Assembly: GCF_000238775.2 (NCBI RefSeq)
Contig: NZ_AFEJ02000002.1
Span: forward strand, 1,178,001 to 1,242,000
Direction: 5' to 3'
Length of the DNA: 64,000 nt
Source of the DNA: Acaryochloris sp. CCMEE 5410
GTDB taxonomy: Bacteria > Cyanobacteriota > Cyanobacteriia > Thermosynechococcales > Thermosynechococcaceae
In this document: positions 2,003-2,074 of the stretch, in pieces
How the letters are laid out: the number at the start of each line of letters is the position of its first letter
Position numbering within the stretch: the first letter of the stretch is position 1
Program-made: the position numbers and the translations under genes
The notes under the pieces: model-generated
What the model saw: only the letters and a program-made list of their open reading frames with translations
Database searches by the model: none
Told to the model about the DNA's origin: nothing

Positions 2003-2074
2003 ACTGAACAAACGCATGTTGTCGGACTGGTTTTCCGCTGCGCTCCAAACCAGCCGCAAATGTGGGCGTTGCCC
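2003..2074 (+). other. attC-like recombination site
   Basis: The element reads ACTGAAC, then AAACGC, and closes with GGGCGTT. Inside it, 2023-2033 (CGG-A-CTGGTTT) pairs with 2047-2056 (AAACCAGCCG), giving a 10-bp stem with one bulged A at 2026, and a 13-nt GC-rich loop. Outer AACGC (2011-2015 region) pairs with GCGTT (2066-2070). An imperfect palindrome of about 70 bp with an AAC/GTT outer pair and extrahelical bases on one arm is the defining architecture of attC sites, and the AACAAACGC and GGGCGTT ends resemble attC/VCR consensus ends as I remember them. It directly follows the TIR-like gene. Confidence 0.65.

Follow-up and report, generated by a model that had tools for sequence, protein, structure and literature searches.

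An attC site downstream of a TIR gene

Is the imperfect palindrome that follows a TIR-domain gene in the genome of the cyanobacterium Acaryochloris sp. CCMEE 5410 an integron recombination site (attC), and if so, how did it come to lie there alone? The palindrome was recognized in a stretch of 64,000 nucleotides, here called the window, to which all plain coordinates refer. It occupies positions 2003–2074 (G000:C2:1180003-1180074 in the 8.09-Mb genome of 23 contigs). As the initial annotation had it, the 72-bp palindrome begins 14 bp after the TIR stop codon, which ends at 1989, and an attC covariance model (R1, see below) aligns to exactly 2003–2074.

The core of the site spans 2007–2070 on the forward strand and has the AAC and GTT triplets at its two ends (2007–2009 and 2068–2070). 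The earlier description of AAC/GTT outer bases is thus correct as to their presence, while the AAC of the R'' box is the one at 2007 and not that of AACGC at 2012. The R'' box GCACTGAAC (2001–2009) is followed by a spacer and then by the 5' arm on the L'' side, GCATGTTGTCGGACTGGTTT (2014–2033), in which sequence, fold and alignment to the L'' box of the attC model agree on an unpaired G, T and A as extrahelical bases. The 3' arm on the L' side, AAACCAGCCGCAAATGTGGGC plus GTT, covers 2047–2070. The inner stem pairs CGG(A)CTGGTTT with AAACCAGCCG; the bulged A is on the 5' side only, as first noticed, and the further unpaired T and G lie on the same side of the stem. As is typical of attC sites, the L boxes are paired and the extrahelical bases lie on a single arm; the predicted cleavage and rejoining point is between G2068 and T2069. 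The R boxes read ACTGAAC (R'') and GTTGCCC (R') and depart from the full consensus RYYYAAC / GTTRRRY. R'' departs by one base from its canonical form, GCACTTAAC, and in an integrated cassette everything beyond the G comes from the target. An integrated site need therefore not show the whole consensus, only the core triplets, and these are present.

The initial annotation proposed scoring the segment with an attC covariance model, which we did with a model of our own. The 14 attC sites on which R1 was built came from class 1 cassettes and marine gammaproteobacterial arrays, with the near-identical relatives of the window site left out. In the 64-kb window its sole match at E ≤ 10 was 2003–2074 (23.3 bits, E = 0.001), a significant score, although the test is not fully independent as three training sites are moderately similar to the window site and share short stretches with it. 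In the whole 8.1-Mb genome the site was one of three matches, with E = 0.13. Rfam contained no family matching the site. The folding energy is unremarkable by itself (z = −1.6 with DNA parameters; 14 of 200 shuffled sequences fold equally well) and would not convince alone, so the evidence beyond chance consists of the R1 score and of the identity of the 64-nt core to a family consensus, from which it differs at two bases (62/64 identical).

Relationship to gammaproteobacterial attC sites

The family was collected by searching a degenerate pattern of the core in 84,980 genomes. The pattern matched 84 stretches, nearly all gammaproteobacterial, plus one in a Chloroflexaceae MAG. Viral contigs yielded one match to the core, and phage records none to the site. 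Among plasmids, blastn found the site at 89–94% identity in Pseudoalteromonas, Catenovulum and Salinivibrio, and in a shorter match at 88% in Alteromonas; one of the plasmid relatives is near an annotated integron integrase. The family cores are nearly identical across many genera, and their flanks change exactly outside AAC and GTT(A/G), the recombination points. R1 reported about 310 attC sites in the family loci and their relatives, which indicates that many family sites are in cassette arrays.

On this evidence, namely the only R1 match in 64 kb and the 62/64 identity to the consensus of 84 loci, 2003–2074 holds a genuine attC site as judged from its sequence, and the original identification is borne out. 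The site shares its arms and bulges with attC sites of marine Gammaproteobacteria (Pseudoalteromonas, Marinobacter, Halomonas, Shewanella and others), lies like them just 3' of a stop codon, and follows the same cassette-edge rule. It differs from them in standing alone, in being found in a cyanobacterium, and in having GAAC instead of TAAC in R''. Cyanobacterial integron attC sites, for which a Cyanobacteria-specific model exists (Ghaly et al. 2021, PMC8352920), have the same overall architecture, including CGGAC in L'', but another sequence and usually a longer central region.

The genus has attC sites and integrase remnants of its own (see below), and one might accordingly regard the window site as native to cyanobacteria, either by convergence on this form or by descent from the integron of the genus. 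We consider this highly improbable. The window site was not among the matches at E ≤ 0.5 that a second attC model, made from cyanobacterial sites (R2), gave in the same genome; 291 cyanobacteria provided only short and weak matches besides the site itself; and the core is nearly identical to gammaproteobacterial sites. In terms of sequence, the window attC is of the gammaproteobacterial and not the cyanobacterial type.

The hairpin also lies between convergent genes (TIR on the forward strand, padR on the reverse strand), where a rho-independent terminator or a REP-like element could be expected. The initial annotation had named an ordinary terminator as the finding that would speak against its reading, and this objection failed: there is no run of T and no terminator call at the hairpin, blastn shows a single copy in the genome, and neither the conserved core nor the cassette-edge rule in many genera would be expected of a terminator. 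As the sole explanation a terminator is refuted, and we give next to no credence to a common hairpin of either kind; the hairpin may nonetheless affect transcription.

Extent of the cassette

The 5' edge of a circular cassette is the pairing partner of its own R'' box, and this provides a way to find the upstream end. The complement of R'' GCACTGAAC is GTTCAGTGC, and the window has GTTAAGTGC at 647–655, with one mismatch (8/9 bases). From this match we infer a cassette of 1,421 bp on the forward strand, 648–2068, with the 5' end G|TTAAGTGC at 647 (G647|T648) and the 3' edge at G2068|T2069. A match this good has a shuffle probability of p = 0.001 within the 60 nt upstream of the gene and p = 0.025 over 186–695. 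The rule applies broadly in the family, where an exact 8-mer complement of R'' occurs upstream in 58 of 85 loci compared with 3–11 after shuffling R'' among the loci. The putative edge is 48 bp before the first start codon, within the family range (median 23). Another candidate edge at 326 (GTTCAG) was rejected in favor of 647; it is a six-base match that 9% of shuffles reach, 370 bp before the gene.

The GC content of the cassette is 0.398, compared to 0.51 in the flanking padR–RPE65 genes. Both genes together with the attC as one cassette were found in no other genome. A promoter-like TTAACA-18-TATAGT at 619–648 straddles the predicted left edge, and as many such motifs were found by chance in the scan.

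Genes carried by the cassette

The cassette carries two genes, both on the forward strand. The first (696–1352) is an open reading frame for a 218-aa protein with one likely N-terminal membrane helix and a domain of unknown function, with no match in Pfam, PADLOC or NCBIfam. Of 291 cyanobacteria, 25 (this genome counted) have the protein or a homologue, the latter at about 30% identity, and the family has the conserved motifs ELxTR...SLYxLF...VLNxGLRP. Several of the cyanobacterial homologues lie just upstream of TIR-like open reading frames, and a homologue in Aureispira sits directly after TIR genes; in cyanobacteria and Aureispira this uncharacterised domain family is often encoded beside TIR-domain genes. 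An AlphaFold model of the protein was discarded on account of its mean pLDDT of 46.

The second gene (1375–1989) encodes a 204-aa TIR protein of the ThsB type (Pfam ThsB_TIR, 1.1e-13; PADLOC ThsB, 4.5e-9). Relatives about 53% identical to it are found in 148 plasmid records, mostly enterobacterial, whereas the 290 other cyanobacteria contain none at 1e-15. Viral contigs contain no match to the TIR protein.

The ThsB-type second gene and the TIR-linked family of the first suggest that the pair is probably a TIR defence module, that is, a small antiphage system as predicted from the proteins. The ThsB_TIR domain is shared with Thoeris, but Thoeris has ThsA where the cassette has an unnamed membrane protein as the partner, itself lacking a PADLOC or Pfam match, and the pair is therefore not Thoeris as such. 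Antiphage cassettes in integrons are already known (Darracq et al. 2025; Kieffer et al. 2025, as reviewed in PMC12409362). Going by that review, they are likewise small, with one or two genes and TIR-type defence-like cargo; the window cassette matches none of the systems by name, lies outside an array, and its defence role is a prediction.

Cargo of the attC family in other genomes

The genes just upstream of family sites elsewhere include ThsA, ThsB, Gabija GajB, Septu PtuB and PARIS AriA, as well as a Pycsar-type TIR effector, Mrr nucleases and AbiJ-like proteins. In a sample of genes before family sites, 4 of 20 matched PADLOC at 1e-8, compared with 0 of 30 genes before other attC sites of the same loci at 1e-6. 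The family-site genes are also longer than these controls (median 248 vs 156 aa), and owing to this confounding by gene length the defence bias is a lead only. It is possible that a nearly invariant 64-nt attC lineage, spread across many gammaproteobacterial genera, is biased towards defence genes. If the cargo bias is real, the attC core can be searched for and the upstream gene read, which would provide a handle for new defence genes.

The insertion locus

To the right of the cassette is a padR regulator gene on the reverse strand (2114–2659; Pfam PadR and Vir_act_alpha_C), a flank that is common to relatives without the insert. To the left, continuity of the reading frame across an insertion sequence suggests that the element has split a PIN-domain (VapC-like) toxin gene, of which 186–301, on the forward strand, is the 3' end; an antitoxin-like open reading frame of the split gene lies upstream of the window. 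The end of the insertion sequence, with its transposase on the reverse strand, occupies 1–185 of the window, and a second copy is present on contig C1 (1,311-bp match, 99.8% identity), where it adjoins an integrase gene fragment.

The interval from a SEC-C-type gene to padR contains about 4.2 kb here that are absent from the same-genus genome G002, and in another genome of the genus, G004, the cassette is likewise absent beside padR. Besides the cassette the insert holds a HicB-like open reading frame, the split PIN toxin gene and the insertion sequence itself, and the locus is a hot spot for insertions. The exact empty site (...ATTATAG|TTGCCCGC...; ATTATAG|TTGCCC) was not found in relatives, and as the locus also holds the insertion sequence and the toxin gene, it allows no clean comparison of before and after. 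The two edges of the cassette would be compatible with an insertion of the attG type, its target being a G|TT in the genome outside attI and attC, but the relatives provided no exact empty site.

The same surroundings could be read differently. The insertion sequence next door, the hot spot, and the usual occurrence of family sites in arrays would all agree with a real attC cassette that came in as part of a longer gammaproteobacterial array, through recombination either homologous or IS-mediated, and later lost its neighbours, so that no integrase acted in the cyanobacterium. Such a history would leave unexplained that no second attC of any type is nearby, that the left edge fits a cassette edge, and that the left neighbour is the PIN toxin remnant of the insert. 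We regard it as unlikely.

Integrase remnants and other attC sites

The earlier call for a genome-wide search for intI and further attC copies was rewarded in the second respect: R1 and R2 together detected some ten more attC sites, mostly of the cyanobacterial type. As to intI, the genome contains fragments only and no intact gene, and hence no complete integron with a functional intI next to attI. The best fragment scores 126.6 bits over positions 1–128 of 315 (N-terminal), compared with a curated cut-off of 265. This fragment, also the largest, is a truncated integrase at G000:C1:3158433-3158813 (L009 8401–8847), about 2 kb from an R2 attC match, and the other pieces are shorter and decayed. 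One decayed fragment, at G000:C1:2299388-2299582 (L010 from about 7391), abuts the 99.8% copy of the insertion sequence at the left edge of the window. Nor does the window site belong to a CALIN, an attC cluster lacking an integrase, which takes at least two neighbouring attC sites where the window has one site in 64 kb. The suggestion that a genuine site would mean cassette capture or a remote integrase agrees with the lack of an intact intI in the genome; the integrase would be either remote or since lost.

Two of these attC sites, at G000:C2:980452-980521 and 923816-923911, immediately precede GNAT acetyltransferase genes that are related to each other; the GNAT copy beside the second site is cut by an insertion sequence.

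The premise that integrons are uncommon in cyanobacteria did not survive the wider survey. An intI match over the curated cut-off was found in 25 of 78 related genomes and attC-model matches in all 7 genomes of the genus. In the literature, Cyanobacteria count among the integron hosts, their attC sites being numerous enough for a model of their own (PMC8352920, PMC2426708, PMC8618304). The same-genus genome G005 has 26 attC-model matches scattered over many contigs.

Transfer and insertion

Integron integrases bind attC as its folded bottom strand and cut a single strand at G|TT. They then join the cassette to attI or to a further attC, and more rarely to an attG site in the genome. We consider it very probable that 2003–2074 is the attC of a complete, solitary integron cassette (648–2068) of gammaproteobacterial type, which entered an Acaryochloris ancestor and was inserted by an integrase at a G|TT outside any attC. 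The bottom strand, when single-stranded, would fold into a hairpin whose paired boxes and extrahelical bases an integron integrase would recognise, joining the G|TT end of the cassette to the target. Insertion at a non-attC G|TT between the toxin gene and padR could then have been carried out by the genome's own integrase before its decay, or by an integrase supplied in trans. Taken together, integrase-mediated insertion is the most likely course suggested by the edges.

Cassette insertion at genomic attG sites is known (Loot et al. 2024, as cited in PMC12444791 and PMC12901181). In the cases described there, too, a lone cassette occupies a G|TT position of the genome outside attI and attC, whereas here insertion is read from the edges and not from a comparison with the attG consensus.

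The attC is almost identical to marine gammaproteobacterial sites, and the cassette therefore probably crossed between phyla; we infer the donor and the direction of transfer, into the Acaryochloris ancestor. The lower GC content of the cassette and the gammaproteobacterial relatives of its TIR gene, with none close in cyanobacteria, also speak for this reading. The parts are all of known kinds, and what is noteworthy is the passage between phyla, the solo state, and the possible defence bias of the attC lineage. A likely cross-phylum cassette move would here be documented by the cassette's own recombination site and not by gene trees alone, and a lone cassette persists where the integrase has decayed; the impression of integrons as uncommon in cyanobacteria is corrected at the same time. 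These results lead us to speculate, with considerable doubt, that one nearly invariant attC lineage could serve as a shared vehicle across orders and phyla that preferentially carries antiphage cassettes and is able to lodge alone in genomes, here that of a cyanobacterium.

Other observations

Parts of one contig of this genome match Acaryochloris marina plasmids at 89–93% identity. Elsewhere in the window, 16121–16283 matches the family of the antisense RNA IsrR, which is involved in isiA regulation, just over the gathering score (53.1 vs 52 bits).
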